DNA of 64,000 nucleotides. Origin: Tethya wilhelma (Eukaryota > Porifera > Demospongiae > Tethyida > Tethyidae). Both the position numbers and the translations under genes were made by a program. The stretch spans positions 6,826,511-6,890,510 of the forward strand of contig CAXIPT010000003.1 of assembly GCA_964030475.1 (NCBI GenBank), in the 5' to 3' direction. Positions 24,169 to 47,360 of the stretch are shown piece after piece (the first letter of the stretch is position 1; every line of letters begins with the position of its first letter). Below the pieces are notes generated by a model that had not been told where the DNA came from, made no database searches, and was given only the letters and a program-made list of their open reading frames with translations.

Positions 24169-24734
24169 TCAAGGAGTGGATCCCATGTGGGATAATATTT
24201 TATCTAACCATAAAAGAGGTCCGTTTATAGACAGTTCTATCCAGCACGGTGTGGACATGATGGACTGTGGATCCCAATTTTCGACGAAGCTGATTCGAAT
24301 TGTGCATGTTTTTATTAGCTGATAAACAGCGTCAAAGCCTTGACTAATGCTCTGGGTCAATTGGTGAGAAAAATTTTGATAGTCGAACACACACATGTGA
24401 CAGTCTTGTGGCATCTTCACCGTAGTACCAGAAAATCCGTTTGAAAGAATGAATATTGGTGCCTTAGACTTGCGCTCGGCATATATCTTTCCTCTTACCT
24501 TGAATATTAAAATACCTTTTCCAATACGTTTTCGTGTTTTGGTGATTGATTTGTTTCTGTAGCAATTAGAGAGTTCACCAATACTGAAATGATCTTCAGA
24601 ATTTGCGCCAGAGAATCCATCGATGGTGAAACTGGCCTTTGATGCGCTGAAGACATCAATGCGATTCTTTTCTTCATAATAGTATACTGAACACCAAGAG
24701 TGAGGTTCGGTATAAGGGATGGATTTGTAATTGT
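24169..24734 (-). CDS. Smad MH2 domain, terminal exon without SSxS motif
   Basis: After a (CA)n tract and acceptor CAGCAG near 24735 the exon codes about 188 residues that form a nearly complete MH2 domain: WCSVYYYE, ASFTIDGFSG, IGELSNCYRN, KRIGKGILI, IYAERKSKAPIFI, SISQGFDAVYQL, CTIRISFV, STPCWIELSINGP and LLWLDKILSHMGSTP, then TGA. These blocks match receptor-regulated Smads better than Smad4 or Smad6/7. R-Smads continue after MGSP with a tail ending SSxS, which the type I receptor phosphorylates; here the protein stops at MGSTP. The L3-loop region (NWDPQSIMSTP) and two other loops are several residues shorter than in typical R-Smads. MH2 mediates Smad oligomerisation and receptor binding. 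No MH1 exon was recognised upstream on this strand to 26.1 kb. No stop or frameshift inside, so it may be functional. Confidence 0.85.
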
Positions 24735-24736
24735 CT

Positions 24737-24783
24737 GCTGTGTGTGTGTGTGTGTGTGTGTATGTGTGTATGTGTGTGTACAT
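24737..24783 (+). repeat. (GT)n microsatellite forming the end of the MH2 intron
   Basis: On the minus strand this (CA)n tract directly precedes the acceptor of the Smad exon and acts as its only pyrimidine/purine alternating spacer; a classical polypyrimidine tract is lacking. Confidence 0.85.
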
Positions 24784-25189
24784 ATTTGTGAATTTCAATC
24801 ACCAACCCCACATAAACATGCACATACACAAGGCCACTACAAGTTCTACTTCCGTTTCTAGTCCGGATTTTCCCCAGTGGAAGCCATGTGGGCATGCAGG
24901 CAGTACATCTCCGCAACTTAGAAAATCTTTGGCTTATCGTTGCATCCATGTAGAATCCCACATGTTTTCAATTTGCTCTTCTGAAGCTGCAGCAACAGGA
25001 CCTAGTGTGAAATTCTCTTCTTTCAGTTACTATATAAAGTCTGTTCAAAAAGCTAGGTCAACGGTACCTTTACAGGTGCTAAAAGCTAGGCTTTAAATTC
25101 ATTGTTCTTCTCAGCTGCGGCTCTAAGATCACTCAAATTCTTGCATCGTTCAGCAACTTTTTCATACTCTGCATCTTGACTTTGTCACA

Positions 25190-27053: not shown

Positions 27054-27089
<36 letters not shown>

Positions 27090-28035
27090 GAGTGGTTGTA
27101 CTTACAGAGAGGTGCAATTGAGCCAGTACTGAGAGAAGAAGTGGGAGAGACTGGGTGGTAGTGCAAAACAACTATAGAGGTTATAATTATAAGAACTAGT
27201 GACGATGTTGAACATCAAAGGGGCAAGCCGTTATCATTGCTATGTAGCAAACAATTACAGTTCATCAATAATTGATGTTACTTCAACTATACAACACACA
27301 TAAAAATGAAAGCTGAATATTAACCAGGTCTGATGTAGGACAAATGAACTAAAGTGTACTTGAAAATGTATACAGCATGACTGAGCAGCACAATTCAATT
27401 GCTAGTTGTTCAAAAACAGATAGAGAGGTGTATGTGCTAGTATAGGAGCCAGCAGTACTAGCTGTTGTTTTTCTTTGCTTTCCTCTACTCAGCTATGCTC
27501 CCTTTTGGTAGTTTTCAGCCCCTCTAATTGTGGTCTCTCTGGTCATTGCATGGCTCAGTTCCGAGTCTTTAACTAAAAGGGCACCAACTTGGCAAGTGTT
27601 TAAGTTTACTCTCTTTTCAGCTCAAGCAGTATATAGCTTTCTTTCTCAGTCACCACAGATCATGCATGATCACGATGAGCACGTGGACCTACGCGCATGC
27701 GCTGTAGATTGAGATGCACAGGCAATGATCGTCATAAACATAACCTACATTTAACCGGTGAAGAGGACGTACGCCAGACAAATATATAACATATAACAGA
27801 AAATTTCGCCGTTGACTACACTAGTGTGGGGCTCGCTCAGGCTCGTCCCAATAATTTTTTGAAAGATTGTGGTCAGATCAAACAACAAAATTTTATGCCT
27901 CTATAGCAACTTGTAGACCTGTATGCACTTTGATTACAAGCTACCCGGCCTACCTTTGGGTTTTGTTGTTTGAAAGTTCTCATGATCATGATCCTCTGCC
28001 AGAGGTGGTACAGGGACAAGTGGTGGAACTGTGAG
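26925..28035 (+). repeat. local duplication pair (26925-27046 and 27903-28035)
   Basis: Both copies share GACCTGTATATGCACTTTG/GACCTGTATGCACTTTG, CAAGCTACCCGGCCTACCTT, CATGATCATGAT and AGGGACAAGTGGTGGAACTG, then a (GT)n tract. A second shared block (TTTTTTGAAAGATTGTGGTC) is at 26588 and 27855. The N at 27053 lies in the first GT tract. No coding potential. Confidence 0.85.
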
Positions 28036-28531
28036 TGTGTGTGTGTGTCATTTAGAAATGATCAATAATTACTGATTTTCTCCAATTATAACAATGTGTA
28101 AGCCTACTCAGCCACCACATGTACACAGACCGTGGCAAAAAGTTGGCTGCATGAAACTATGCTGCATACAAGATGACCAAATAATAAGGAGACTATTATA
28201 AAATTTGTACTTGCTTTTCAACACTTTGTGGAAACCACAATCATGATTTAACATTATCTGCTACTACTGCCATTAGAATAAAAGGAGAGGGGATACTCAA
28301 TAGTACTGACTAGACACACCAACAATATTAAGGAAAGAGACATACAAGACCTGCAATGCATGTAGCTAGAACTACCATGCATTCTTTGACTGGGCCTGGA
28401 ATTGAGACATTGCTATTACTAGTGGGTGACTAACATTGGAACTTTTTGATTGAAAACAATAATACAACATTAATCTTAAAAACAGCATAACATAAATTTG
28501 GCTATATTATTATAAGCAAGGTTTTGTCTGA

Positions 28532-28581
<50 letters not shown>

Positions 28582-29150
28582 CAGAGGCACATGCAGTGCT
28601 ATAGTCTGAGACTAAGATAGGATGACAGGTACTACAAAAGAGAGTACTGATGTTTACTGCTTGATCCGTTATGCATGCACAGGCATATGTATTATATACT
28701 CACAAGGCATTTCGGCTTAGCTATAGAATAAGTACATGTGCATACATTCACAACGTGAATCTGATGTTATATAGATGTTATTACCAATTTCTGCCATCAG
28801 CTAGCAAAAAAACAACAACATTATCTGGCTAGCTAAGTTTTGTGTACAGTGACACTGTGAATTAGACTCCTAGTAACAAATGTTCTCCCCTCACCACGCT
28901 TTATTTGTGAAAGATTGGTTATCACGCATCTTCATCAGACATGGTTGCCATTGGTAAGCCTTGTCAGCAATCTCAAAACAGTTAGCCATCTTAGACAATG
29001 ATATTCAACATAGACATTTTGTTGCCTCTGATATGTGGTCACAAAAAATGTTTCACTAATTGTAGAGACAGAGACAGCCAGTCTAAACTGTTGGAAAACT
29101 GTCAGTAGGAGTGCCTTCTGACCAGGTACTCAAGCAATACTTTTTTTACA

Positions 29151-29200
<50 letters not shown>

Positions 29201-29860
29201 GCATGCACACACACATATATACACCGCACACGCAATGATACATGCCAGCTACATGATGAAGATGAATTTTGTTATAAGCTGCACTTTCAGTCCAAATAAG
29301 TCTGAAGTGCATAATTATGATGCTTTGTTTTCACTCCAATCCTGACAAATGACATTCGTCCCAAATTATCCCACATGCGCATTATTTCACTATTATATTA
29401 TACTGACACAAGTTGGAAGACCAAAAGTCTTAGTGTCCCAAATTACCCCGTTTTATACACCTTATGAGAAATACAACTGTGAAACACTGCCAAGCCATTG
29501 ATTGTAAAGCACACATGTATGTTGAAATGTCAACCAGCTCAGGCATATGCAAACGCTAGTCTAGCCCTTGACCCCGCCTGTTTCGCTGGCGAAACAGAAT
29601 AGTAACCACAAAAGAACAGACTGCATGCATGAGTCCAAATCCTAGCTATAGAAACGGCACCTTCACCGTCAATTACAACTTTTCAAAGAAAAGCCCTACA
29701 TTATCTAAACATAACAGAGTAGGCTAGCTACTACTGGATATGCAAATTATATATATGAACACTAACCAAATTATTCAACAAAGGCCTAAATGAAACAGCG
29801 ATGCGTAATCAGTTCCTGACAGTATCACCTATAACTGCATTGCCAACAACATAACATCAC
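28036..29860. other. mostly non-coding, possible introns of a minus-strand gene
   Basis: Contains (GT)n at 28535-28579 and (CT)n at 29157-29196. On the minus strand an open piece near 28990-28890 (MANCFEIADKAYQWQPCLMK) is short and lacks support. If the exon at 29865-29886 is real, this would be its transcribed region; I could not identify the following exons. Confidence 0.3.
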
Positions 29861-29864
29861 ATAC

Positions 29865-29886
29865 CTTTCTTCTTGGGCAGACTCAT
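29865..29886 (-). CDS. candidate first coding exon of an unidentified minus-strand gene
   Basis: ATG AGT CTG CCC AAG AAG AAA G is followed by a consensus-like donor GTATGTGATG. The short start peptide MSLPKKK with a phase-1 donor is plausible for a 5' exon but not specific. It lies about 300 bases downstream of the 3' end of the CXXC-POU gene. Downstream exons were not found, so confidence is low. Confidence 0.25.
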
Positions 29887-30183
29887 AATGACATTCTTCA
29901 GACTTCTCTATATGCGATTATGACGGCGATACGGCGGAGTAGCTAGTTTGATGACGCTAAATAGAGAGCGGTTACTTATATGAGCGTTGCTCGGGCATGC
30001 GCATGTGCGCATGGGCATGCATATGTGTTATTAGCGGTGTTACGTTTCGGTGATCTTTATAAACTTGCATGAACATATGAATGTAGTAGTGGTACAAATG
30101 GCATAATCATAATATTTATCATCAAAAGGAATTAAAGAAAGAGCATGATTTGAACATTGTAACATCAATATCAGTGCATCAAA

Positions 30184-31589
30184 TTAACTGTCCATTTTTC
30201 TTGCAGTCTTGAACTCTTTCCTTTCTTTCCTGACACATGATCCTTTCGAAGCTTGCTTCTTGTCTCGCTGCCGGCGATTACAGAACCACATGCGAACAAA
30301 ATCCTTCTCGATACGAAAGTGGTCTGCAATCTGCTGCAGTTCGTTTTGGTTAGGCTTCTTCTTCTTGTGAAATTCTCCTTCTAACAGGTCACATATTACA
30401 TCATCTAAAATACATCTTTTTTGTTTGCATTTTGGGCTTATACTTGTCATTAAATCTACGGTGATTTCTTTAATTTTCTCCTCACTCAAATTCAAAGCTT
30501 TCGATGAGTCCCTCAACCACTCCTCAATGCCTAATTTGATTAATCTTACCGTTTCTAGTGGTAGCTCACCAGCTTCAAATTTTACAAGTGTGTCTTGACT
30601 GAATGGAATACCATAGCGAATACACACTTGCTGCACGTCATCAGCTCGAATGTAGCCCAACGGCTTTGTTCGCTTGGATTTAAAAGTCGAAGCAAACTGT
30701 TTGTATTTTTCAGCTTCCTTGGCTTTTTCACTTGAAAACTCTGTTTCCACTTCGGAATCCACCGTCCGTTGGATGTCCGGGGCGTCGACATATCCCTCAG
30801 TAACAAGTGTGTAGGTCCTAGTGCTCATGAAGTTGGAACAGCTACGCCGTGCACAGTGCTGCTTCTTTTTTCCTGGTCCACCAAATTTTGGCATATCGAG
30901 GCAAAATGAGCAGGTGCCACAATCCTCCCGCAAACACCCCGTACATTGACCACAGCGACGCCTTCTCTTTTTCCCCATCAGTGCAGAGTAAACATGTGCA
31001 CGATGTGGAGGAGTAAGAGCTAGTAGATCTGTTGCTGGTGGCTGTATAGTATACCCTTCTTCTACTGCTGCAGCTGCGATTGGTAAAGGCATGTTTTGAT
31101 CAGTTGCCGAAAGTGGTTTTGATGAAGCTACTTCGAGTCTTGTCGTCACTTGATTGACTGGAATGGGTCGTACTATATTGGGCGAACCTCGGCCACTAAA
31201 CGCTGCTGAGCTGGGAATGCTTGGTGTCATATAATTTGATTGAGGTAGGACTTGCTGGAAAGGAAAATCATTCTGTTGACATCCCTGTCCTTGATGTCCA
31301 AGACCACCATACTGTGCTTGGTGGTGTAACTGTCGATGGTGAAGATGGTAGTTGCCGTCCTGCTGTAACATGACTGGTGGTTGAAGTTGATGAATTGGCG
31401 GAGCTTGAGTGTGTGTGGATGATGGTGATTGAATTGATTGCAGAGGAGGCATTGGAGGAGATAACGACAGGGGCGGTACGTTTGTGGCGAACTGATAAAA
31501 TGATTGATCGGGTGGGTCAAAGTTGAACTCCATTGCTGCTGAGTATGGAGGGACCGCTAATGTAGCTATTATCGAGTGGACAGTTGGAT
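30184..31589 (-). CDS. CXXC zinc finger - POU-specific - POU homeodomain fusion transcription factor
   Basis: From Met at 31533 there are 449 residues; the frame is open upstream to an acceptor (CATATAG, exon edge 31589), so a 5' exon may exist. Residues 1-185 are Pro/Gln/Ser-rich. 188-232 form a CXXC finger with all eight cysteines (RRCGQCTGCLREDCGTCSFC) and the DMPKFGG and KKKQHC signatures of the type that binds unmethylated CpG. 272-343 match a POU-specific domain (KYKQFASTFKSKRTKPLG, FSQDTLVKFEAGEL, LGIEEWL). 368-427 match a POU homeodomain with RMWFCNRRQRDKK, including the POU-typical Cys after WF. A basic tail ends the protein. The predicted role is a nuclear DNA-binding regulator reading both CpG context and an octamer-like site. 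Everything from 30184 to 31589 is one exon. A divergent POU gene lies upstream. Confidence 0.9.
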
Positions 31590-32847
31590 CTATATGAATA
31601 ATAAGTGATTCTACAATTATGAAAATGAAAATAAAATATGTGAATTACTTTAGCAAAGTAAGTCATACTCTCTGACTAGATACACCCACAGCCTGGTATA
31701 CTGAAGTTTGATGTTTTCAGCCCGAACTGTTAAACAGTACTGAGGTCTAGATCTGATGATACATGCTGTGCACAGTATACTGAGGTCTGATACATGCCGT
31801 GCGGCCCCAGCCGTGGTACGTAGTACATGTACATTATAATTGCATGCATCATGTGTGTACAAACTAACTATAGGCTCCAAAAGCTATGATCATAAGCCCA
31901 TAAGCGCACAACGGGTATGACAGTACAAGGACAGCACATGAGTATCAGCATACCAGGTTACTGCAAAAGACAAGTAATAAGCCATATGTACAGCCCTCAA
32001 ATTAATCAGTATATTATGTCTGTCACTGGAATTTTGGTCCTGAAATTTTTCGGTCCCCTGAACCATTTTTTCCAAAAAATTTGCTTGAATGTTTTGTCAC
32101 CCCTCGACCTCTGAAAACTGCCAAATCTATCATAATTAATTTTTGTACACGCAAAAATCATAACCATGTAATTCTCTTCGGTACAGATCTAGATGATCTT
32201 CAAAGGTGCTACTGTAAAATATCAATAATTTAGTATACCTTTTTCACGGTCCTAAAAGATCATTACATCAGGTTTTCACACAACAGACAGCTGCAATTCA
32301 CGGCGTACATTTCACAAGACAACAAGAAAACAATTATTTCTAACGATGTGTCTAGAGAGCCGGCAGTCCGTATACTTTCCTATTGCTTTTGTATTGCAGA
32401 GTTACGTAATATACAGTATCCGGATTCTGCCGGTGCTGTATTAAAGAACCGGCACCATTGACTGCAATATATTTAGCTTTAGTTTACGGAGCCGGTGCAG
32501 TAGACACAGCGTATTTCTAAACCTAGCTGTTCAATTTGTGCTCGTGCAGTAACCGCGAAAAGTTCTAATTAAACCATGAATATCATTAAAGCACATGCAC
32601 GTATAATGTACACTTGAACATACATATCAAGTGTCTGGTAATGTTAGAGGAGGGGTATAGAATTTCACATGCAGGCTACTTCTGTATATACCAAATGACC
32701 AAATTGTACCTGCTGATTCTACCAGGCTAATCAAGCGACCCTGATAGTGACATTACGGTAAGATAGTGAACAGTAGTGGATATTCATACGTTGTATCACG
32801 GGTATGAAGGTCATCCAGGCACACTAGCTGTTAATAAATTATTGTAG
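31590..32847. promoter_or_regulatory. shared intergenic region between divergent POU genes
   Basis: About 1.25 kb between the first seen exon of the CXXC-POU gene (minus) and the first candidate exon of the second POU gene (plus). No repeats of the families seen elsewhere were recognised and no long open frames. It probably holds both promoters and unseen 5' exons. I could not point to specific TATA or initiator elements. Confidence 0.35.
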
Positions 32848-32922
32848 GCTCAGACTCTGACCCTACATCCACCGATGATGATCACCACGAGGCATCTGAA
32901 TCAACTGATGAAGAGAGTAATG
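32848..32922 (+). CDS. candidate acidic exon upstream of the second POU gene
   Basis: Bounded by ATTGTAG and a weaker donor AATG|GTTTGT. The open frame codes SDSDPTSTDDDHHEASESTD and a few more acidic residues. Acidic Ser-rich segments are common in transcription factors, but phase continuity to the next exon (33553 region) could not be shown, so assignment to this gene is a guess. Confidence 0.3.
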
Positions 32923-33475
32923 GTTTGTTTTAATCAACATACAACTAGCAGTGATCATGAGAACCATGCATGCATGGCCACGTGAAAAAACCAAGACTGA
33001 CTGAGGAGTAATGAAAGGTAGCTATTATACATGTACATGTATATGGATCTACTGTAATTGTATGTAACAAGAGCTGCTGACACTAATACTGCAATTATGT
33101 TTCTTTTTTTCTTTATCCATGATCTCATGCACTAAGAATTCAAAATGATTGTTCAGGTCTAAATCATTCTATACCTGGATTGAGAACTTAATTAAACAAT
33201 TCTATGATCAGTAAAATTGTCATTATATAAATAATTTATAACATTATGTTGAGAGGGAAATAATTATTTCAAAATAACAAAACACAACAAAACTTGATTA
33301 AGAGTAATAACATGCAGTACTAAACGTGGAAGTCCTTAAACAAATTACAAACCATATATACTTATCGTTTCTTAGGTGTGGATGCCTTGACATGTTTTTA
33401 CCTACACGGAAAAATGGCAGAAAGGACAGCATATTGTGAGTGAACTTCTCAATCTTTTGTTATTTAACCCTCATG

Positions 33476-33538
33476 CACACACCCACCCACACCCACACCC
33501 ACACCCACACACACACTGCACACACACACACACACACA
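33476..33538 (+). repeat. (CA)n / (CCCACA)n tract before an exon
   Basis: ACACCC and CA units just upstream of the acceptor of the exon that begins near 33553. Confidence 0.85.
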
Positions 33539-33552
33539 CCTGATGCTCGTAG

Positions 33553-34748
33553 TGTTTCTTTCCTGCCCCAGTGCAGTGGTGTAGAGTCCTTGACCTCACA
33601 GAGACATTCTTCTCCTGAAGCTCACGTTTCTCCCAGCTCGAAGTGTTTCTCCCCTGTGCCTGCCCCGGATAGTGGTGAATCATTAGTCTCTCCTGTGGAA
33701 ACCTCTCTCGACATCACTTTGTGCCAACAGAATCCTGATGTTGTCATCCCAGTGTCGGATCTGAGCCCAGCTGATGTGGATTCTCCGGTGTTTTTTTATG
33801 AGGCAAATAACACCCTGCACTGCACGGTACCGGTGTCTGTGTGGATCGTCGATCGAGATGGTACCTTCAGTCGAAGGTAAGTGCTGTTCACTCTAGTGAT
33901 CTGAGCATAAATTTGCCTACAGTTTTGTTGCAATTTCTTCTAGTTCCAAGTTATCATAATTTCATCACTGTTCATCAAACTGATTCTTGTTCTGTTTTTT
34001 CTTCGGAAAGTCTGTTAGTACTGATATCTCTTGCATGCAGTGCTGCTGACCTACTTTTTTGCTTTTGGTGCTCTCTCTGATTGCAGGTCTGACTCTCTTC
34101 AGGCGCTAGCAACTAGTAGCTACTAACTGGTGTCCTTTTTTTGCCCTGCTGTTCTTCACACGTTTCTCTCTGATTTTTTTTCAACTTTTCTCAATGACAT
34201 GTGGAAACGTTCATTTCAAATATATACGGAAAATTTACGCGAAATTGACCTAGAGCTAAAGACTGCTTTGTCTGTCTGTGTCGTATGTCTTTCACGCATT
34301 TCAGCATCATGTCAATGGCAGCTAGCTCGCAGACACCGCGAGCTGCCATTGACACAACTAAAGGCTCTGTTGAAACTGACAAAGAACTAGAAACCATGAT
34401 GAATCCGGAGTACCACCAGCAAGCAGCAACAGTGAACTATACATCACCGCCCCTTCAGTTGCCGACACAAATAACGAGCCCTGCTCTATGTCGCATCCCT
34501 CCTATCTTCCCTCCTCTTTGGACCATTCCAACACCAATTGAAAGCAATGGGGACATGAGATCTCCGAACATATACCATTCTCCGATGGTGAGCAACTTCC
34601 CAACATCTCCAGCCGGCTACCATCCAGTCATCCAAAGTCCTCACGCTCACAGGACCATTCTGCAAGGCCAGCACCCAGATCCCTGTTTGCGCTCGCAAGA
34701 GGTGAAGAAGCTCGAAGAGTTTGCGCACACTTTCAAAATACGAAGAAT
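33553..34748 (+). CDS. second POU-family transcription factor, cut by an assembly gap inside the POU domain
   Basis: Exon 33553(or 33572)-33876 ends at CGAAG|GTAAGTG and joins in frame (2+1) to the exon starting at 34305 after CATTTCAG. The first exon is Ser/Pro-rich (SPSSKCFSPVPAP, ISVSDLSPAD-like blocks). The second exon gives about 148 residues rich in Pro/Ser/Tyr and ends KKLEEFAHTFKIRR, which is the conserved opening of a POU-specific domain (EEFAxxFKxRR). The next base is the N at 34749 and the sequence after it shows no POU coding, so the rest of the POU domain and the homeodomain lie in the gap or were misassembled. An alternative start is Met at 34309 within the second exon. Class (I, III, VI) cannot be decided from this fragment. 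Confidence 0.75.
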
Positions 34749-34749
34749 N
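34749..34749. other. assembly gap (single N) truncating a POU gene
   Basis: Coding similarity stops exactly here. Other single-N gaps: 27053, 35317, 41100, 47360, 55914; longer gap 61486-61742. Confidence 0.95.
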
Positions 34750-34999
34750 CTCTTAATTCAGTGTCTGTGATGCATGCCCATGGCCTGCCGTATATCCCTC
34801 ATGTAGTTGTGGAAATATCATAGATCTAGAAGTTCTTTAGTTGTATATGAACCTTAACACTTTTTTTCTTTTTTGCGTTTCCCATCATTCCACATTAAAG
34901 TTTTAAGCTAAAAACAAAAGTATGTATAGGTTTTTGGGAAGTTTTCATGTGGTGGGCTCACCATGTTTAATAGTGATAAAGATATATGTATATACCATA

Positions 35000-35317
35000 C
35001 CACATTAAGGTTACACAAGTAGTAAAAATTTCAAAAAAATAAGTAGTGTAGGAATGGGCAGTGCGGTAAAAAGTATTGGAACAAGGTGATGTCTCAATTT
35101 CGGCACATGACTACTTCATTTTAATCTTGATCCGGATCCTCAGTGTTGTAAATCCAATGAACTGTACAATAGTACCACAGCTTATTATTGCATTTTCAAT
35201 TTCAGTTCCTACTAATCAGTTGGCTAAGTAGTGGACTATATAGATTGCTGGCCAGGCAAAAGTTGGGTATAAAAAATGAAGTAGTCATGTGCCGAAATTG
35301 AGACATCACCTTGTTCN

Positions 35318-35412
<95 letters not shown>

Positions 35413-35795
35413 GGAATTTGGAATCTCAATTTCGGCACATGACTGCTTCATATTTTGTGCCCAAGTCTTGGCTGGTATTAATCTAATCCTGCAGGCTCTA
35501 CTTTATTCCACTTTTTAGCCAAATGAATCTAAATAAGATTGGCAAGAATTTGAACCATTAATGTGATAAAAGTTAATGTGATACTGATTAACTATTCAAG
35601 TACAGATCATTGTTTGAACCATTTACAACAGTAATAGCTATGCACAAGGGATAAAAAATGAAAATGAAGTAGTCATGTGCCGAAATTGAGACCATTCCTT
35701 GTTCCAATACTTTTTAATGCACAGCCCATTCCTACACTACTTATTTTTTTGAAATTTTTACTACTTGTTATAGTTACATGACCCTTAAGTGGGGG
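35000..35795 (+). mobile_element. long inverted-repeat element interrupted by a (GT)n tract
   Basis: About 110 bases near 35005-35125 (AGTAGTAAAAATTTC, TAGGAATGGGCAG, AAAAAGTATTGGAACAAGG, TCAATTTCGGCACATGACTA) are inverted at 35650-35790. The CTCAATTTCGGCACATGACT block recurs at 35290 (inverted) and 35428, so smaller copies are nested. N at 35317 and (GT)n at 35318-35410 lie inside. A related, more diverged element is at 53140-53470. Confidence 0.75.
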
Positions 35796-36137
35796 GGCAC
35801 TCGATGCATGGTCGACTTACGGGCATGCAACTATTTTGTTTATCATTGACCCCCGTGACCCCTAGCTACTCTATTGTCACCTCCACCCAGCCAGTAACCT
35901 TTAAAAAAACTTTGGTTGCTAGGCAATGGGAAACAAGTATGCTTGCTCTAAGTGTTTGTTGAGCCATCAATCTATGCAAGCGGTCTATACTCAGACATGT
36001 ATTATGTACATGTACTCAACTGTTGTCAACTCAAGCCCATGTCATTTTCCTCTTTTTTTCTATAAGGCAAGAGCCTATATCAGATGCTCAGACCCCATTT
36101 GTGTGTGGCAAAGTATTTTAAAATTCTGCTTATCTTT
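35318..36137 (+). repeat. 820-bp duplicated block, copy 1 (copy 2 at 41101-41931)
   Basis: Both copies start directly after an N with a long (GT)n tract followed by TTGGAATTTGGAATCTC and stay nearly identical up to CTGCTTATCTTTA. Copy 2 has a short extra palindromic insertion (GGTCGAGTGCCGCACACTTA region near 41594) relative to copy 1. No gene inside; the 60-140-codon frames present in both are not recognisable proteins. Confidence 0.85.
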
Positions 36138-36460
36138 ACTATTGTAGTGGGATAACCTGCAACCTCAACCTGCTCAGACACTGCATTTTTTTGTTTGTTG
36201 TTATTTTGTAGGCCTCGTAAGAAGCCCAGAAGCATTCAGTGACTTCATTGCTAATGCCCTAGTTCAGGACCAACAATGTACTCAATCAAGTGTGTCTTAT
36301 ATATTTCCAGGTTAATATAAATTTGTGATTAATGAACAGACACCAAGGTACCTAACCTTAGGTTGCATACTGGGTAAATTGCTCTATAATTATACCATGC
36401 AGTAATCATGAATCGTGAGCTTGAGGATACATAGTAAATCTACAACCAATGTGGTCACTA

Positions 36461-36693
36461 AAGTCCATCTGGTTTGAGAATGCCGGTAGAAAAACTTAAT
36501 AACTTTCTAAATATCCAACTGATTTCAAAATTTCAAGCACCATTGGAAAGCGCTCGATCTTCCCGTCCTTTTGGTTGCTTTTTCAGCTTTCTACACCTTA
36601 CCAATCAAAAGTTAGCTATTTTGCCCATAGAAAAAGTATGGTTATGAATCTCATTAATTCACTTCCGGCGGCATTCTCAAACCAGATCGACTT
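36461..36693 (+). mobile_element. MITE with TA target (AAGTCCATCTGGTTTGAGAA ends)
   Basis: AAGTCCATCTGGTTTGAGAATGCCGG is inverted at the right end with few mismatches; TA flanks both sides (36459-36460, 36694-36695). Partial copies are at 39626-39684, 40793-40953 and 41985-42174. Confidence 0.85.
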
Positions 36694-36989
36694 TAGTGAT
36701 GATCTGATTAGATATGTCTTTGTTTGCAAGATATTGCTACTGAACAATACATGATTTATGACTATAAACCAGATATTACGTACTGTCATGCGCATGCATA
36801 GGTAACTGAGTTTCTGTTAACAAAAATTTGCTTATGATATATACCAAAACAGCAAGCTTAAGAAGAGTATTGAGTGTTCTTGCTTACTATTTTTACCTAA
36901 GTAAGTCAGCAGCCCCCCAGCTCTTTCTGTCAAGAGAAACATTCATCTTTCAGTCAATTCTATATAACGCACACTAACAAATAGGCATG

Positions 36990-37250
36990 ATTAGCAGGTG
37001 TGGCCTCGAAGCTTATAGCGCTCAGAGAGGCTGAAAAGGTTCAAATCGCAGGAACTATATACAGGGTTGTTTTTTGTTGTTTTTTTTCTAATGCTACGTT
37101 TATTTTTTTTTTAGATAATCTCGATTATTTTACCTTGGTATGCTGCTTTGGAAGCCTGCAGCCGTTCTTTTGGAACAAACACACAGACAGACAGAGCTAG
37201 ACAAAATGACTACCATCTTGCTGCACATGTGCACCAAGGGTTAAATATAG
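36990..37250 (-). repeat. GTAGTCGTTTTGTCTG repeat family, inverted copy
   Basis: Reverse complement shows ACCCTTGGTGCACATGTGC, GGTAGTCATTTTGTC, GAGGCTT-like and AGGCCACACC words in the same order as the copy at 42335-42600. Confidence 0.65.
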
Positions 37251-37264
37251 GTAGCTAGTATTTT

Positions 37265-38520
37265 AAAGTATGACGGGAGGAAACAAACTGGGGGTATACC
37301 TTTTTTTAACACAAATGGGAAGGTCTTCTATTAGAGGTTATCTGCCTTGTTTTTCAGGGCCTGTTGGACTCTCCAGCAAGAGCTATTCACTTTCGCGTTC
37401 TTTCCCGGGAACCCAAAAAGCATCACATGGTAGCAGTGACTGCAGCTTGTGAAGGCTAATGGTCGTCAGACTCGGATATCATTACTGTAATTTTGGTAGT
37501 CGTTTTGTCTGTCTGTCTGTTCCATCGAAATCTCAAGAAAGGCAGCTCTAGCAACAAAATTAATGGTACTTACGTTCATAACTCTGAATGATCTTGTAAA
37601 CATATATTTTTTGCTTTCCAAACACTCTAGTTGCTGAGATTTGAGGCTTTTGTGCTTCTTTTAGCTCTTAGCTTCGAGGCCACACCTACTGATTTAGTGT
37701 GCGTTATCTAGAATTTGTGTTGAATAGAAGTGCAGAGATTCAGTCACGGCTGCTGTTGCTGTTAGTCATTGTTGTTTGGCAAGACGCACAGGAGTTGGCC
37801 TGCTTTCTATGTAAGCATATTGGGCATGCATAAATTTTTACATAATTGTAACTAATTGTTAGCAAATGCATCAGTGGTTCTAGCTATAATAATGATTATA
37901 ATCATACACTCTTTTACAGAATGTATGCATAATATTAAACTGTGCTGGCTAGTTGAGTGTGCTGTGGCTTATGCACCTTGGTGCTTTCATTTGAATGATG
38001 TAATGCCACACCCAACTGGCCGTCTTGCGCACCCCCTGACTTGCACTTCACTGTGCACGTGTTGCTTGTGACGCATTTTGAGATCGTTAACTAAACATGT
38101 GCCCGCGCCTGGCTCTAAGAGCGATGATGTAATACCAGGCGCTGAGACATACACTGTAGTCGACCGTGCCCACTGATATGTGGACTGCACGTGCATACTA
38201 AACACGTCAACTTACGTCAAAGCTTAAGGTACCTCCCAGATCCTAATGATATTAATAACTAAGTACTCAAGCTAAGCGTGCACATGTGCGCTCGAGCTAT
38301 AACTATAACTGCACCCACAATTGCGCAATATGACGTATTGCCAAAATAATTAATTATTAAACAACTCAGCAAGACGTACACCGTGAACAAGAAAGAGCGA
38401 CCTTTCTTTTTCAAGTTGAGAGAAGCCAAAGGAGACAATTTACAGGGTATGTTTGATCTTCTTTGGCACTTTTTTACTTGAAATCATGAGATTCTATATA
38501 AATTTAGCTAGCTAGCTATA
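37265..38520 (+). repeat. diverged segmental repeat, copy B (copy A at 4845-6200)
   Basis: Collinear with copy A. It lacks the 597-bp element of copy A (uninterrupted target at about 38118-38130) but carries a GTAGTCGTTTTGTCTG-family insertion between CATTACTGTAATTT (37490) and ATTTGAATGATGTAATG (37989). Confidence 0.8.
37492..37990 (+). mobile_element. GTAGTCGTTTTGTCTG-family insertion with a demonstrable empty site
   Basis: Copy A reads straight through CATTACTGCAATTTGAATGATG near 5062-5083, whereas here about 490 bases are inserted, beginning TGGTAGTCGTTTTGTC and ending CACCTTGGTGCTTTC. ATTT (or AT) may be the duplicated target. This fixes the boundaries of the family, of which pieces recur at 16.8, 18.1, 42.3 and 55.9 kb. 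Confidence 0.75.
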
Positions 38521-38577
38521 GTATCATTGGCCTATAACAATTTGTATTTCGTTTTCAATTTCTAAATTGGCCAGCCC

Positions 38578-38686
38578 TTTTGGTACCCTTGGATCTTTGT
38601 TCTTCACCACCACTGTTTTTTGAGGAGCTGCATAGTGATTGGGCACTTGTGAAGACATCTGAATGCACATTACGTTTAGCTATCTC
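38578..38686 (-). pseudogene. fragment of a second copy of the Mutator-like transposase
   Basis: Nearly identical to 12890-12997 over about 108 bases, coding (minus) part of the Ser/Lys-rich region near the C-terminus (SAQSLCSSSKNSGGEEQRSK). Flanks differ, so it is a stray fragment. Confidence 0.85.
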
Positions 38687-39089
38687 CCCAAAGTTATGAA
38701 CTTAAAGCTTCTGTCACTTTTCACTAGTAGTATTTTAAAAATGGACTCTTATTGTAGTTTATATGTCGGCCATTCCCTGTGGACAGACACTTGCCTACAT
38801 ACACATCCATCCATGTATGCATCCATATACATGGATGTGTATATAGGCAAGTATGTGTTTGTTATGGTGGCTGTCAATTAAATACCATTGTTAATCCCCA
38901 CCTTGTACTCTTGAAAAGGCTCATGTTTTCAATCCAAGTCATGTCTCTGTATATTGTCTACATGGCTATACCCACGCAAAAAGACTCCAGTTGAATATGC
39001 ACCAATACCCATCAATAGCCTCAATACCAAGTGAATATCTTATAAGAGATGGTATGTATCCATGTATTGTAAATCTGTCTTCTCCATCT

Positions 39090-39600
39090 CCATCCCTCTA
39101 TGTACAGTTTGAAAGAAGTTTGTGCCAAGTCCAGGAGAGCAGCAGAGAGCTTTAACTGGAGGCTCAGTTGGAGCAGCAAATTGCTCTTAAGAGTTCATAG
39201 ACTTGAGGAGGACTGCTCTTCAATTAGAGTACGATCTTGTACCCACACTCCCTGTGTGTCATGTAGTGTTATTGCAGTTTGTTTGCTCTTAGGACAAGTT
39301 GGAGGTGTAGCAGAATAAGACTTCAGGGTTCTCCCCAGGATGGTTGATCAGAGTGGTGCCAGAGAAAACATCAAAGCATTCTTGTGGCTTTAATGCAGAT
39401 CTTCATCTCTGACTGTTGAACAGACCAACTATGACTTAGAGAGAGGAGAGAGGAAGGCGGTGAGGATGTGTGCAGCTCTTGTATAGGGTGTGTGAAATGG
39501 ACTATCGATTGATGTGGTTCAACCTTTATTGTGTGTACAGGGCTATGATGTCATCCCTTGGGGATTTTGAAATGAAGTTAAATCATGTGAGTAGAAAGCT
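39090..39600 (+). pseudogene. possible decayed coiled-coil gene fragments
   Basis: TACAG-bounded stretches near 39108-39160 (ERSLCQVQESSREL, then a stop) and 39541-39588 (AMMSSLGDFEMKLNH before GTGAGTAG) look exon-like, with a QTNYDLERGERKAVRMCAAL block between (39420-39485) that ends in a stop. Glu/Gln/Leu-rich composition hints at a coiled coil. Weak. Confidence 0.25.
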
Positions 39601-39790
39601 AATGATTCAGTAGTTGTGTGTGAAGTCCATCTGGTTTGAGAAATGCTGGCAGAAAAAAATCGAATAACTTTCTTATTATCTAAAGGTCGGTATTTCCTGG
39701 TGTGTCACGTAAAAATTATTCATGCGCAGATAAGCAAGAGCACAACGTATCAAACGTAAATTTGGACAAGTCTTCTAAAAAAAATTAAAA

Positions 39791-40562
39791 ATGGCAGAAA
39801 GTTCCAGAATTAGAGTAGCTGTCCTCAAGAGCCATTGTGCCAGTCTAGAGGACCATGGTGTCCCTCTCTCTGTTTGTATCCAAATGGATCAACTTGGACT
39901 GAAGCTATTGGATGCTCAATGGACTGCTAGATTCTCAAAGGGTGGATTTTCTGTGTCTTTCTTTTGGCCAGCCCTGGGTAGCAGTAAACCAGTGAAGAAA
40001 TGTAAGCCCAGAAGTAAGAAGTCTAAGAAAAATACCCAACAAGAGAGTGCAACCTGACACACCTGAGAGCCCTGTCAGTGTATTGTCATCTCAGAGAGAA
40101 AGAACAGAGCCTGTTGACAAAGTTAAGATTCCAACAAATGCCCACCAGAGTCCATTATCCAAAATTGAAAAGCTAGCGACTCAAAATTCCTCCACTGACT
40201 GTTGTACTATCTCTCAGCAAACACCAAATCTGTCTCGGTGCAAGGATGTATCATTTGAGCAACGCGACAACACTCCTGGGGTGAAGTATCAAAAGCCAAA
40301 CTCACAAGATAGTAAATGGATACCAGTGGTTAGAAGGAAAAACAGACCCAGGCTGAAAGAAATCAAGAATTCTAGTGAAAATGATAGCAGTGATTCAGAA
40401 GTAGATATTTCTTGCTCTAGACTGGTACAATATGACACTCGCAATAGAGTACCCGGACTGCTGATCCATCGGAGAGGACCTCCTACCTGGACCCCAATCA
40501 AACCATCGAAGAGCATATCTCCAGTTGCCTCCAGGACTAGATCTAAAACTCAAACTACATAA
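39791..40562 (+). CDS. retroposon-like ORF, two frames (paralogue of 3-230)
   Basis: Frame 1 (39791-40057) starts MAESSRIRVAVLKSHCASLE and holds a compact block FSVSFFWPALGSSKP followed by a Lys-rich stretch. Frame 2 (about 40047-40562) continues at +1 with Ser/Pro/Thr-rich sequence, WIPVVRRKNRPRL, SCSRLVQYD and a C-terminus VASRTRSKTQTT. The two frames overlap by about ten bases, so either a one-base indel or a frameshift joins them. 3' UTR and (TAA)n tail (40666-40692) match the copy at the window start. A basic, low-complexity protein with a simple-repeat-tailed transcript suggests a gag/ORF1-like protein of a retroelement. No reverse transcriptase follows. Confidence 0.5.
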
Positions 40563-40659
40563 TCACTTGAATTTGACTATTAGTTTCATCTGTATGTTTT
40601 GTTCTGGCTGTCAGTTAACTCTGACAGACCATCAGTATACACTGTTGTGTACTGTAAAG

Positions 40660-40694
<35 letters not shown>

Positions 40695-40792
40695 TCTGTG
40701 TCAATGCGTTGCGTTGCATTGCGTTGCCAAAATATGAAATACTATTATGCAACGCAACACCGGATATTGTGAACCCGCCTTAACCTACAAAA

Positions 40793-40953
40793 TTTCAAGC
40801 ACCGTTGGAAAGTTCTTGTTCTTCCGTTCTTTTGGTTGCTTTTTTAGATTCCTACACCTTACCAGTCAAAAGTTAGCTATTTTGCCCCATGTGAAAAGTA
40901 TCATATGAATCTCATTGTTTCACCTCTTGCGGCCTTCTCAAACCAGATTAACT
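40793..40953 (+). mobile_element. partial AAGTCC-family MITE
   Basis: Shares AAAATTTCAAGCACCGTTGG, CTACACCTTACCAGTCAAAA and a right end TTCTCAAACCAGATTAACT with the element at 36461. The left TIR is missing. Confidence 0.75.
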
Positions 40954-41100
40954 AAAATTACCGTAAATAGTTGAAAAATTTTGTGGGAAATTTTTGGCTT
41001 GTTTTGCTGTCGGTTCATTAAATTTTCATGCAAATTTCCCAACGTTTGGTATAGGGATGATTATTGTTCACCCATTGTACAGTTTCCACAACCACACATN

Positions 41101-41195
<95 letters not shown>

Positions 41196-41931
41196 GGAAT
41201 TTGGAATCTCAATTTCGGCACATGACTACTTCATATTTTGTGCCCAAGTCTTGGCTGGTATTAATCTAATCCTGCAGGCTCTACTTTATTCCACTTTTTA
41301 GCCAAATGAATCTAAATAAGATTGGCAAGAATTTGAACCATTAATGTGATAAAAGTTAATGTGATACTGATTAACTATTCAAGTACAGATCATTGTTTGA
41401 ACCATTTACAACAGTAATAGCTATGCACAAGGGATAAAAAATGAAAATGAAGTAGTCATGTGCCGAAATTGAGACCATTCCTTGTTCCAATACTTTTTAA
41501 TGCACAGCCCATTCCTAGATTACTTATTTTTTATGAAATTTTTACTACTTGTTATAGTTACATGACCCTTAAGTGGGGGGCACTCGATGCATGGTCGAGT
41601 GCCGCACACTTAAGGGCATGCAACTATTTTGTTTATCATTGACCCCCCGTGACCCCTAGCTACTCTATTGTCACCTCCACCCAGCCAGTAACCTTTAAAA
41701 AAACTTTGGTTGCTAGGCAATGGGAAACAAGTATGCTTGCTCTAAGTGTTTGTTGAGCCATCAATCTATGCAAGCGGTCTATACTCAGACATGTATTATG
41801 TACATGTACTCAACTGTTGTCAACTCAAGCCCATGTCATTTTCCTCTTTTTTTCTATAAGGCAAGAGCCTATATCAGATGCTCAGACCCCATTTGTGTGT
41901 GGCAAAGTATTTTAAAATTCTGCTTATCTTT
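41101..41931 (+). repeat. 820-bp duplicated block, copy 2
   Basis: See 35318-36137. Starts right after N at 41100 with about 47 GT units. Confidence 0.85.
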
Positions 41932-41984
41932 ATGCCAAAATATAAAATACTATTATGTGACGCAATACCATTTTTTGTGGACCC

Positions 41985-42174
41985 GCCTTAATCGATTTCA
42001 AAATTTCAAGCACCATTGGAAAGTGCTCATTCTTCCTGTTCTTTTGTTGTTTTTTTTTAGATTTCTACACCTTACCAATCAAAAGTTAAGTACATTTTGT
42101 CCACAGGAAAAGTATTGCATGAATCTAATTATTTGACTTTGGCAGTATTAATTCTCAAACCAGATAGACTTTTG
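41985..42174 (+). mobile_element. partial AAGTCC-family MITE
   Basis: Body and right end (CTCAAACCAGATAGACTTTT) match 36461-36693; left end lost at the junction with the duplicated block. Confidence 0.7.
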
Positions 42175-42334
42175 TTGTGACTTCTTTGTAAAGTAACAGT
42201 TTTGAGTATAGTATTACTATGCACCCAGGCAGATCTCTTTGGGAGGCTTGTCAAGAGTCTTTCCTACATGTAGAGTTTTGCACATATAAATTTAGTGCAT
42301 GTAGTTTGTGCTAGTGTAAAGTTCATGTAATTAA

Positions 42335-42397
42335 CCCTTGGTGCGCATGCGCACCAAGGGTTACAGTAGTCGTTTTGTCTGTGTGTGTGTGTGTGTA

Positions 42398-42433
<36 letters not shown>

Positions 42434-42605
42434 TTCCAATTATATCTCAAGAACGACAAGTCCAGTGTTCAAAAGCGGCATACCAAGGTAAAATTATCTA
42501 AAAAAATTACACGAAGAATTCAACAAAACCTTGTAGTTCTTGAGATGTGAGGCTTTTCAGCCTCTTTGAGTGCTAAGCTTTGAGGCCACACCCATAATTT
42601 TTGGG
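42335..42605 (+). repeat. GTAGTCGTTTTGTCTG repeat family copy with (GT)n expansion
   Basis: Begins ACCCTTGGTGCGCATGCGCA (a palindrome), AGTAGTCGTTTTGTCTG, a (GT)n interior at 42378-42430, then CTCAAGAACGACAAG and GCTTTGAGGCCACACCCAT. Confidence 0.7.
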
Positions 42606-42617
42606 GACGAGCCTCAT

Positions 42618-42895
42618 CAGAGGAGGTCCGACATCTGTGGGTTAATTGCAGACCGTTTCTAAATTAACAGATCACGTGACTCGTATTTCCTGGTCTTGAA
42701 TTCAGATGCTGCTGCTTGGAAATAGGCTAGTTTTTGTGCTCTTTCTTGTTACTTTTCTAGATCAGTTCCTTAAAGGGTAAGACAAATCTTAGAAAATGGT
42801 TGAAGGCTTTAGATAGGTGCTAGTACAAGACCCGGAAATGACATCACGTGATCACAAGGACTAGCAATTAACCCGCAGATGTCGGACCTCCTCTG
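42618..42895 (+). mobile_element. CAGAGGAGGT-family element with 9-bp target duplication
   Basis: Ends CAGAGGAGGTCCGACATCTG and its complement; GAGCCTCAT is duplicated at 42609-42617 and 42896-42904. Inner ATCACGTGA and GTTAATTGC words also pair. 278 bp, non-coding. Confidence 0.9.
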
Positions 42896-42904
42896 GAGCC
42901 TCAT

Positions 42905-45511
42905 AACATAAATAGTAGAAGCTTAGCTACTGATATGAAATGGTCTGAGGTCCTTTTATAAAGCAACAAAAGCCTGTAGCTCCTGAGATCTAAGGGTTGT
43001 CAGCCTATCTGAGCGCTAAGCTTTGAGGCCACACCCATATCCATGCATACTGTTAAAATTCTGGGGCAAGCATGAGGGACAAGCCTGAGCGAGTCCCATA
43101 GCATAGCTAAATGAATGGCCTGAGATTTGCTTAACACAATAACACCAAGTACCTGGAATTATACATTATATTACGCACCAAGGGTTTTGTACCTTGGTGC
43201 ATTCATTATCTCTGTTGGATTGTTGTCATATTCACGACTGGATTCTTCTGCTTCTTGCTTGTATTCATCAAAACTGGATCAAAACTCACATTCAGGACTG
43301 AAATCTTCCGTTTCACACTTGGACCCATTGACGTCAACATCGCTGGACCGAGGCTCCTAAATGCCAGATAGATGTTTAGGTATATTTACATCTCCAAATT
43401 GTGGCATTACAGCCTTAATCATAACTTTGAGGGAGATTTTAGCTTTCTCTTGTTATTTGTTAGATCAGTCAACTTGGTCTTCTAAGAGTTTTTGCTTCTT
43501 GAGTGTTCTAACAAACTTCACAAACTGTGTGGATACTTACATCCTTATTGGGGCGAGCCTAAGCGAGCCCCATTGGAACGTGGAAACATTGAAGCAACCG
43601 TCACACCGTTGACCAAACCGGAAATAGCTAAGATACTCAAATTGAGCGAACAACTTCAAAAAATTAAAATACCTACTGTGCGCATGCGCATGAAGACTAC
43701 GGTATTTCCATTTGCACGTAATGGACCGCGTGGCATCAAAATTTTGTGAAATGAATCTCGAAGTTGAAGCAAAAGACACTCAGGTCTCGAGGACACTGAA
43801 AGAGCCAAGGGGCTGAGCTGTGAACTTGCTATAAAATGAGCTGTGGACGTACAGAAAAACTACAGAGGGAATTCTGCAATTTGGTTCCTGCTTTATAAAT
43901 ATTGGTCAACAAATGTCAAACTAGATCAGTGAACACACTTGCTTGCAGAGCGGTGTTTTTTTTTGTTTTTTGTTTTTGCCTTACATCAGTCTCGTTCCTA
44001 GGAGACTAGGCCCGACTCTCCGTAAGCCAGCTAGCAACCCTGCTGATGCTGATTAGTATGCTCAGGCTTGCCCCACGATGTTTCCATCTGACTAGTATAG
44101 GGAGAAGCTGGTATCTGAGTCAACACAACTGATATACTTGTTTTAGCCAGCCACTGTAGATCAAGGCCAGGGGTGGAAGAAATTGCATATACATGCTTGC
44201 AAATTTGCAACTACCATATAGCGGGAAATTTGCGAGGGGAAAAATTTCATGTTTTCATCTTGAACTGAAATTCGCAGGGAAATTTTTGTGCAGATAGTGA
44301 CTCAGGAACAACCAGAAGTAATATATTTTCATGCTGAGATCCATTCCAGCTCTTCTTTTTCCAATAAATTCTTGCTAGTAGCTCATTTTCAAGCTTCTGT
44401 AGACCTCCTTAGCTGCTTTCTAGCTTTAGTTGGCTGTACGTTGGCTTTTTACACATGCATGCGTGTGCTCCCGAAGCAGTGATTTTACGCATGATACACT
44501 GCATACTGTGCATAGCTAAATATGTGCCAGAATGTCAAATAAAAGGTGTTTTAGGTGAAAAATAAAAAAACTTCCAACAAAGGACAACCTCCGAATAGAG
44601 GACAAAAGCCATGCTCTGAAGTGTCCCTTGTTCGGAGGTTCGACTGTAGATGACTCTGATGATGAATTGAATTAACTTGAATGGGCTCCTACATAGCCCG
44701 TGTGGCATCAATGATCACAATTTAAAAACTATTAAAGAGTTTCATGATACTTTATACACAGTCATAGTGTAAATAATAGCTATGCTTATGTATATCTTGC
44801 CTGGGAACAGGGTCATTTAGTGGCCCGACAGACACGTTCACATGCAAATGTTTCTCTGCTCTAGCTCTTTTCATGTCTTTTCTCCTCGAGGCCTCAGCTG
44901 ATCACACCAATTTAAGGACAGTTTCGTGTAAACTGTGAGTCAGATCATCATACTATTGTGGCTGGGCTAGCGGGCATTTAACCTATCCACAAGTTGTAAC
45001 CACCAAACATGACAGAAGTGCTTACTATATTAACATTATAATTACTTTGTATTACCTAGTATCCACATGCAACATCTCTGACATCACAACTCTGGCCATG
45101 CTGGTCTTCTAAGAGATTTGCTATACTTTGACCATGAATATAGCCCTACCAGCAAGGTCTTGTCCAGTGGATATTGTATTGTACAGCTGTATTGACAAGC
45201 AGGAAACACTGAGCATGTGGCCAGGAAATGAACTGTTGGCATCAAGTTGTCCAAAAAGCTGAAGTTGACAAAAAAAATATATTTGCTACTTTTCCAACAA
45301 AGTATATAGCAAGTTATAACTAAGTAAAAACTATCTATCTGAGAGCTAAAAAAGCAATACCATAGGTCAAATGTCCCAAATTTCTCTTTGCTTGTAAGTA
45401 CAGTTACTATACTTAAACTGCAAACTGGAAGTAGGTAAATTAAAACTGAGGGCATAGCGTATCTTATCTACCCACTTCCATGCATATGACTTATGTTATC
45501 AATTATGTGAT

Positions 45512-45584
<73 letters not shown>

Positions 45585-45590
45585 AGCAAC
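42905..45590. other. non-coding region with repeat pieces
   Basis: Pieces of the GAGGCCACACCCAT family near 43035, ACGCACCAAGGGTT/ACCTTGGTGC near 43175-43200, GGGGCGAGCCTAAGCGAGCCCC near 43552, a foldback near 44575-44650 (CAACCTCCGAATAGAGGACA with TTCGGAGGTTCGACTG) and a long (CT)n tract at 45509-45582. Open frames at 43127-43780 and 45084-45455 carry no recognised domain and I do not support them as genes. Confidence 0.45.
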
Positions 45591-45598
45591 AAGTAAGG

Positions 45599-47359
45599 TG
45601 TGCATGGATCCTGCATTATAACAGTGAGGATTTGACTTTATTTATTTATTATTATTATTATTATTTTTGTTCTTATTTATTGTTATTATTATTATTATAA
45701 TTATATTATTATTATTATTATTATTACTGATTATTGTTATTATTGTTATCATTGTTGTTATTAATTTATATAATATGTATTACTTTATAGCTCCATGGAA
45801 ATATGTCAGTTTGTTCAACAGAATAATATTATAAGATAAGAATAATCATAATAATTATAAGAACACTTCACTGCTCATGGATAATGATTGCATGATTCCT
45901 CGGGTCACCTTGCATAATACTCTGTGATGAACTTATTGAAGAAAAATTACATCAGTCGAACCAGAACGTATTACTCTCTGCTGCCCTGTATGTAAAACTG
46001 AGTGAGAGTTCAGATGATATCATTCCACCGCAAAAGTCACATCCAAGCTTGAAGATCTGGGGCGAGTGGAGTTAATCTGCAGCTGTAGGTGTGCTTCCAC
46101 TGTGCGGGCATCTCTCACCTTTCCCATACATGCTTCACAGGGACAAGACATACGACGCTGTTTCTTTGCTGGAGGAGGTGTCACTATATTAATTTTAGAT
46201 GTAAAAAGATAATTCATAATCATTGAAAGCACTACAAATATAAATGTAGCTTTCACCATGCACAATAATTATGGAACAGGCTGAGCTCAACAGGCATAAA
46301 AAAGTAGTATCATAAGCAAATTAAATTGATAGTTGAGGCAATGTTTGAGCAATAGTAACCAACATTGTACCAGCTCATGTTGTAATTCAACCAGCTGTAC
46401 ATTCCTAGCTTGTACCTGAACAAGCATTTCAGCATATCATTACCTTAACGAACTATTTCAAGTTGGTAACCTAACATGTTTTTATTCAGAGTAATTTGGG
46501 CCAGAATAAGAATTTTTTTTTAACCTCTGACTAGCTAAAGACCCATTACACTCTAAATTCTCAACGATTATTTAAATACACACTAATTAACTTGTTGTTT
46601 TAGTATTTATTCTGGGAAGCAAAGGGTACAAAGGGGTTGTATGTACTTCACGCAAGCACATTCAATATACAGCTTGCATGAGCTAAAGCAATCTATATAC
46701 AATGGGGTTGGGGTGGAAGGAGGAGAGGGAAATAGCTATAGGGGTAGATCATGACCATGAAAGCACAATCTATATACAATACAGTAAGCAGACAAGACTT
46801 AGGGAATACATGTGAGGTTAGCATCATAGTCTTACCAGGCCCTGGGTTAACTTCCACATCTCCACATAGCAGCAATGACATCAAACAGAGTGACTTGACC
46901 TAATAATAAATAAACACAATAATTATGAATTAGAGGCACATCATGCACTAGAAAACATCTGTGAAAATAATTTAGACTCGCTGCATACTATAGCTAACAA
47001 GAGTACATGATAAGCTACATTATATATATGTACTCTTGATGCTAAATATGAGCTTGTGAACACTTACTGTAGTGAAGTGACATTTTGCTACCATAGCATC
47101 CATAAACTTTCTATTCTTCCATAGAGAATTGACATAGACATCCTTGTGGAGGCCAAAAGGGTTAACGTGAGATGTGAGCAAGTGAGAGTTGTACATTGAT
47201 GTACGATATGAATCAGTAACACACTCATACACAACACCCATTTGAGTGCCATGATTGTTATCACTTCAGAATAGCTCAATATCTGCAGTAAAGAAAGAAA
47301 TTAATTCTACAAACCACACGTGATGAAGTCACAGATTTTCATTAATTTACTTACCAAAT
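45599..47359. repeat. 1,761-bp duplicated block, copy 2
   Basis: Constant offset of +26,354 to 19245-21005; ends at the N at 47360. Confidence 0.9.
46020..47282 (-). CDS. second copy of the 2A-motif gene exons
   Basis: Exons 47068-47282, 46836-46899 and 46020-46183 are exact positional equivalents of the copy at 19666-20928, with the same splice phases and the GDVEVNPGP motif in the middle exon. The upstream 117-codon ORF is absent because the copy runs into a gap. Function and uncertainties as for copy 1; if the block is an assembly duplicate this is not a separate gene. Confidence 0.55.
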
Positions 47360-47360
47360 N

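Follow-up and report, generated by a model that had tools for sequence, protein, structure and literature searches.

POU factors work at regulatory DNA, and other proteins set the methylation state of that DNA. In the POU class homeobox proteins (Oct-1/POU2, POU3, and Pit-1), a POU-specific domain is followed by a linker and by a homeodomain with the WFCNRRQ helix. CXXC fingers such as those of KMT2A/KMT2B, KDM2B, and CFP1, on the other hand, belong to chromatin enzymes or their partners, not to POU factors. A gene of the window (i.e., the whole stretch of 64,000 nucleotides analyzed here) presents the domains of both groups: its predicted protein has the domain order and the helix of the POU class, and it differs from that class by an added CXXC finger, a weak POU-specific domain, and altered residues at what we take to be DNA-contact positions. 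We read the locus, with a probability of roughly 0.6, as a real chimeric protein-coding gene of one lineage, in which a duplicated POU gene would have captured a CXXC finger and kept its frame, encoding a putative regulator.

On the minus strand, the frame is free of stops over 31644..30187 and ends with the stop codon at 30184-30186. Translation from the first ATG in frame, at 31533, gives a protein of 449 aa plus stop (Table 1). An earlier note, based on the letters alone, had placed the gene at 30184..31589. This span is indeed open throughout, but the predicted coding sequence starts at the ATG in 31533, and no in-frame ATG is present in 31534-31589 on the minus strand. The eight CXXC cysteines, KFGG, KKKQHC, and WFCNRRQ that the note had seen in one uninterrupted frame are all present in the translation.

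Table 1. Features of the CXXC-POU-homeodomain locus (positions in the window; aa, residues of the predicted protein)
Feature	Position	Strand	Basis
CXXC-POU-homeodomain coding sequence, 449 aa + stop, single unbroken frame	30184..31533	-	Open reading frame, motifs, Pfam
Putative captured cassette of 59 aa (aa 182-240), standing where the C8 paralogue has 29 aa	30814..30990	-	Sequence comparison
Part of the cassette 93.7% identical to the C13 gene	30849-30990	-	DNA alignment
zf-CXXC finger, aa 188-232	30838..30972	-	Pfam
POU-specific domain, aa 274-343	30505..30714	-	Pfam, structure model
POU homeodomain, aa 370-426; R5, C50, N51, and R53 kept	30256..30426	-	Pfam, residue comparison, structure model
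Proline-/glutamine-rich N-terminal region, common to the C8 paralogue, shorter here via in-frame deletions	30991..31533	-	Alignment
Upstream flank, patchy likeness to the flank of the C8 paralogue	31534..32215	-	DNA alignment
Downstream flank resembling that of the C8 paralogue, beyond a 428-bp gap that removes the paralogue's C-terminus	30042..30167	-	DNA alignment

The surroundings of the gene hold several other elements. The POU1/Pit-1-type gene at C13:76,194 has a partial copy at 34249-34748 on the plus strand, 2.7 kb from the chimera and on the opposite strand. On the minus strand, 24172-24798 encodes a Smad-type MH2 domain (E 4.9e-37), while 11117-12388 is a 424-aa open frame with a PHD finger at its end; the remainder of this frame, which has no profile match, presumably resembles the Ulp1-type protease of a mobile element. 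The 783-aa open frame at 12635-14983 (minus strand) has no Pfam match and is possibly derived from a mobile element. Single Ns that look like joins are present at 27053, 34749, 35317, 41100, 47360, and 55914, and a longer N run spans 61486-61742. A small piece between two single Ns, C2:15765163-15766518, overlaps the window at 34648-34748 (100%) and 47361-47941 (99.8%); thus, it probably belongs in the window, and the order of the pieces in 34749-47360 is doubtful.

The single protein with CXXC finger, POU domain, and POU homeodomain that the note had proposed, with profile searches as the check, was borne out by Pfam: zf-CXXC scored 55.4 bits (E 6e-15, cut-off 26.5), the homeodomain 48.4 bits (E 8.4e-13, cut-off 22.9), and the POU-specific domain 31.9 bits (E 1.2e-7), a narrow margin of about 5 bits over its cut-off of 27. 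The homeodomain has the POU-type residues C50, N51, and R53, and the top PDB sequence match of the POU-homeodomain part is Oct-1 (80.6 bits). The finger, with its eight cysteines, matches PDB sequences including KMT2B, KMT2A, and KDM2B, with CFP1 also among the similar fingers; KFGG and the KKQ loop are as in KMT2A and KMT2B. In the AlphaFold model, both POU domains form confident helices (pLDDT 78-94 for the POU-specific blocks and 90-97 for the homeodomain, except for its first block at 67), whereas the finger, modeled from 10 sequences, has low confidence (pLDDT 51.4). When the POU-homeodomain model was used in a structure search, all 30 matches at E <= 0.001 were POU proteins; TM values against the matched POU chains were 0.42-0.55, and the relative placement of the two domains is not predicted.

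Elsewhere in this genome, apparently that of a sponge (124.6 Mb over 204 contigs), a 645-aa open frame at C8:145,267-146,952 matches the window protein on both sides of the finger and lacks a CXXC domain. Identity between the two proteins is 75% over aa 240-447, 77% over aa 85-183, and 66% over aa 1-70, and the paralogue has N-terminal segments absent from the window gene. At the DNA level, the POU-homeodomain parts are 85% identical (489/572 columns), and similarity reaches past the gene into both flanks, which favors a duplication of DNA and argues against a retrocopy. The POU-specific score of the paralogue is 52.5 bits, against 31.9 in the window protein. Its PDB scores (Oct-1 107.2 bits, POU3F1 96.4, Pit-1 91.5) lean only weakly to Oct-1.

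The window protein was then searched against 5.8 billion proteins, with 120 of the 364 matches listed. The top four (P0002-P0005, from ENA) have N-terminal motifs and the POU-homeodomain part in common with it, and no CXXC domain was found in them even at E up to 10. A search seeded with the C8 paralogue gave eight proteins, P0002-P0005 and P0122-P0125, none of which has domains beyond POU and homeodomain (domains from precomputed Pfam, except for P0125, for which a separate profile search was run). These proteins and the C8 paralogue form a divergent POU family, apparently of sponges, in the same POU-homeodomain clade as the window gene; the shared N-terminal motifs are clearest in the C8 paralogue and P0002-P0005. 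All nine lack the CXXC domain. In eight of them, P0003 being the exception, the protein ends in or close to a conserved ITVEVP tail, which is lost in the window gene. The earlier note gave the CXXC and POU pair as not known in vertebrates and left other invertebrates undecided: no second protein with both was found among the 120 matches listed, nor among the seven obtained once longer candidates were admitted. Since the searches depend on shared five-residue words and take their domain calls from precomputed Pfam, they could overlook a distant case. A partial likeness is seen in P0007 (ENA; a candidate gene model), in which the end of a homeodomain stands beside two CXXC fingers. Differently from the window protein, its homeodomain match is partial (profile positions 37-57) and just below cut-off, it precedes the fingers, and no POU-specific domain is present. 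Among the open-licence PMC papers listed, none on a CXXC-POU protein was found either. The sole CXXC passage of PMC4901127 deals with plant HD-ZIP proteins, and CXXC does not occur in PMC4245813. Among the matches listed, the combination appears new within the POU class.

In the POU-homeodomain tree (19 rows), the window gene is sister to the C8 paralogue (97/95), followed by P0002-P0005 (100/100) and then P0122-P0125 (100/100), with branch lengths of 0.24 for the window gene and 0.017 for the paralogue. Since the nine other members of the clade have no finger and the window gene is nested among them, the finger was most likely gained by the window gene rather than lost elsewhere.

A likely source of the finger is represented in the same genome by a CXXC-only gene at C13:904,198-904,980, which agrees with the window gene at 133/142 bp (94%, from TACTC to GTGCAC). 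A 191-bp finger query matched the genome at two places only, the window gene and this one. The cassette is in frame at both edges. Of its aligned finger residues, 37/42 are identical in the C13 gene and 34 in P0006; the C13 gene, P0006, and P0008 have no POU or homeodomain match, unlike the window protein. The cassette ends with RSCSNFMSTRT, which is absent from the C13 copy of the assembly, where a CT array takes its place, and is found in P0006 and, up to one residue, in P0008; thus, the C13 gene represents the donor without being its exact image. From about 904972, it stands where the end of the C13 finger, eighth cysteine included, would be, by true loss or assembly error. Genome-wide, 34 zf-CXXC matches were found, all above cut-off and some with an internal stop, so the CXXC family is apparently expanded in this genome.

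The finger tree has 22 rows, 16 of which stand for these 34 matches; the remaining matches were identical to another row, missed by the regular expression, or not fetched, and P0126-P0129 were left out as long branches. In this tree, drawn open, the C13 gene groups with P0006, P0008, P0019, P0036, and P0085 (84/98), while the window finger falls outside in a position that is not settled; a sister relation between the two fingers was not supported. Synonymous changes are fewer in the finger (3/31 sites against the C13 gene) than in the rest of the gene (72/246 sites against the C8 paralogue; p 0.019), which is consistent with a capture that postdates the duplication; constraint or gene conversion may likewise account for it.

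The POU half appears altered: its fast evolution, the lost arginines around the homeodomain arm, and the lost C-terminal tail argue for this. Positions 1-6 of the homeodomain are CKQKRC in the window gene versus RERKRR, with R5 kept, and the arginine losses are mostly C-to-T or G-to-A changes. In the POU-specific domain, SQTTISRF of Oct-1 corresponds to SQDTLVKF in the window protein and SQDTLVQF in the C8 paralogue; since the paralogue has it too, the first change (T to D) is old in the family. We assume that it falls on T45, as a change common to the CXXC-less family, and we take the changed residues of the arm and of the POU-specific domain to be DNA contacts. Directly after the homeodomain, an 8-bp frameshift and the 428-bp gap remove the family's tail, and upstream the ATG of the paralogue (MAVP...) is TTA in the window gene. 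Over residues 389-430, the window gene and the paralogue diverge at 4/126 bases, and a single synonymous change falls on 23 sites (p 0.0035), a near-identity that may come from gene conversion or hint at constraint.

To what extent the frame is kept can be read from the indels that separate the window gene from the C8 paralogue. Those located before the homeodomain ends measure 12, 183, 30, 216, 12, 3, 6, 6, and 3 bp, all nine multiples of three, versus 4/14 in the upstream flank and 0/6 past the homeodomain (9/9 versus 4/20; Fisher p 7e-5). Leaving out a 16-bp upstream gap due to trimming, the comparison is 9/9 versus 4/19 (p 1e-4). The coding end is our choice, and the 8-bp and 428-bp gaps start in the paralogue's coding frame; if they are counted as coding, the ratio becomes 9/11 versus 4/17 (p 0.006). 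Seven of the nine indels were assigned by eye to the window branch on the basis of outgroups, and all seven are in frame (p 5e-4).

Pairwise omega between the window gene and the paralogue is 0.41 over 365 codons (2dlnL 22.9 versus omega 1), a value pulled down because it mixes the tightly kept paralogue with the window branch. Taken alone, the POU domain has omega 0.245 (2dlnL 11.4), while omega is not significantly below 1 in the homeodomain (2dlnL 0.53), the N-terminus (3.28), and the finger (0.48). In neutral simulations of 365 codons (2000 runs each), 9.7, 1.45, 0.25, and 0% of the runs had no stop at 0.05, 0.1, 0.14, and 0.2 substitutions per site, respectively; half the ML dS is 0.14 and half the NG86 dS is 0.19. 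Judged by the count of amino-acid changes, neutrality fits at 0.1 substitutions per site (P 0.37 for the core, 0.90 for all) and is borderline at 0.14 (0.018 and 0.066). Changes specific to the fusion exceed those specific to the paralogue by 26 to 2 with P0002 as outgroup (p 3e-6), and by 23:2, 14:4, and 15:2 with P0004, P0125, and P0122. Of the positions invariant in eight relatives, the window gene changes 7/57, and P0003 (9/59) and P0125 (10/60) change more. On the whole, selection has probably maintained the frame over a large part of its history, with a constraint weaker than in the paralogue.

Other readings of the locus share part of this evidence. The gene could be functional with the finger as its main DNA reader, the POU-homeodomain part decaying and being of little use, or serving as a weak DNA clamp or as a competitor of the paralogue. 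The fall in the POU-specific score, the long branch, and the altered homeodomain arm next to a finger that holds its eight cysteines and KKQ are as expected from this, but the low omega of the POU domain, the near-identity of residues 389-430, with its hint of constraint or gene conversion, and the in-frame indels up to the homeodomain end speak against it, and we consider this reading unlikely. Rather unlikely, too, is a duplicate on its way to becoming a pseudogene and still open by chance. The gene is a single copy from a single genome, it evolves fast, it has lost the upstream ATG and the C-terminus, its arginine losses have the C-to-T or G-to-A form stated above, and the homeodomain, N-terminus, and finger are each compatible with omega 1. 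Against this, 9/9 indels preserve the frame, the finger sits in frame with all its cysteines, and a frame without stops has a low chance under neutrality at >= 0.1 substitutions per site, although that chance is 0.097 at 0.05.

An ancestral CXXC-POU gene, the finger of which was lost in the other family members, would explain why finger and POU-homeodomain part share one unbroken frame and why the finger tree does not set the fusion beside the C13 gene. It is very improbable, given that all nine relatives share other parts of the protein and not the finger, that the window gene is nested inside them, and that a separate gene matches the DNA of the finger at 94% identity. The assembly itself contains join-like single Ns and at least one small piece likely misplaced, so an artefactual fusion of a POU with a CXXC gene was also considered; we regard it as scarcely credible. 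The gene lies inside the N-free 27054-34748, and therefore no N-marked scaffold join crosses it; its parts differ by 6% from the C13 gene and by about 15% from the C8 paralogue, which means that these two genes were not misjoined to give it; and the flanks of the paralogue are matched on either side of the finger.

The preferred reading, a derived chimera seen in a single genome where both likely source genes appear to be still represented, can be laid out in steps. In the well-supported initial one, a POU-homeodomain gene would have been duplicated as DNA with parts of its flanks, the locus on C8 being the intact relative. A piece of 59 aa like that of the C13 gene would then have replaced, in frame, 29 aa just before the POU domain; the replacement is well supported, and its timing, apparently later than the duplication, is less so. 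Subsequently, as the comparisons support, the frame from N-terminus to homeodomain would have been kept during quick sequence change, and the old C-terminus lost via frameshift and deletion. The product would most likely act in the nucleus as a DNA-binding regulator, its finger contributing an affinity for unmethylated CpG on top of the binding by the POU-homeodomain part, about 40 residues away on the chain. It is plausible that CpG reading and octamer-like binding are coupled in this one putative regulator. The window has a CpG o/e of 0.48 and a TpG/CpA excess of 1.33, as would be expected under germline methylation; in a CpG-depleted genome, the finger could steer the protein to CpG-rich unmethylated elements. 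With the family's C-terminal tail gone, the protein may act as an altered variant of its paralogue or as a competitor to it.

One possibility, to which we give a little less than even odds, is a POU factor that directly reads the methylation state, the captured CXXC finger limiting the POU-homeodomain part to unmethylated CpG-rich elements. Such wiring is unseen in the other POU proteins listed, and it would be so young that the genome still contains relatives of both source genes. By carrying a CpG finger itself, such a factor would bring the methylation and POU layers together. Its birth would be largely traceable in one genome, from a duplication to the capture of a new domain inside the reading frame, in a host that appears to be an early-branching animal.
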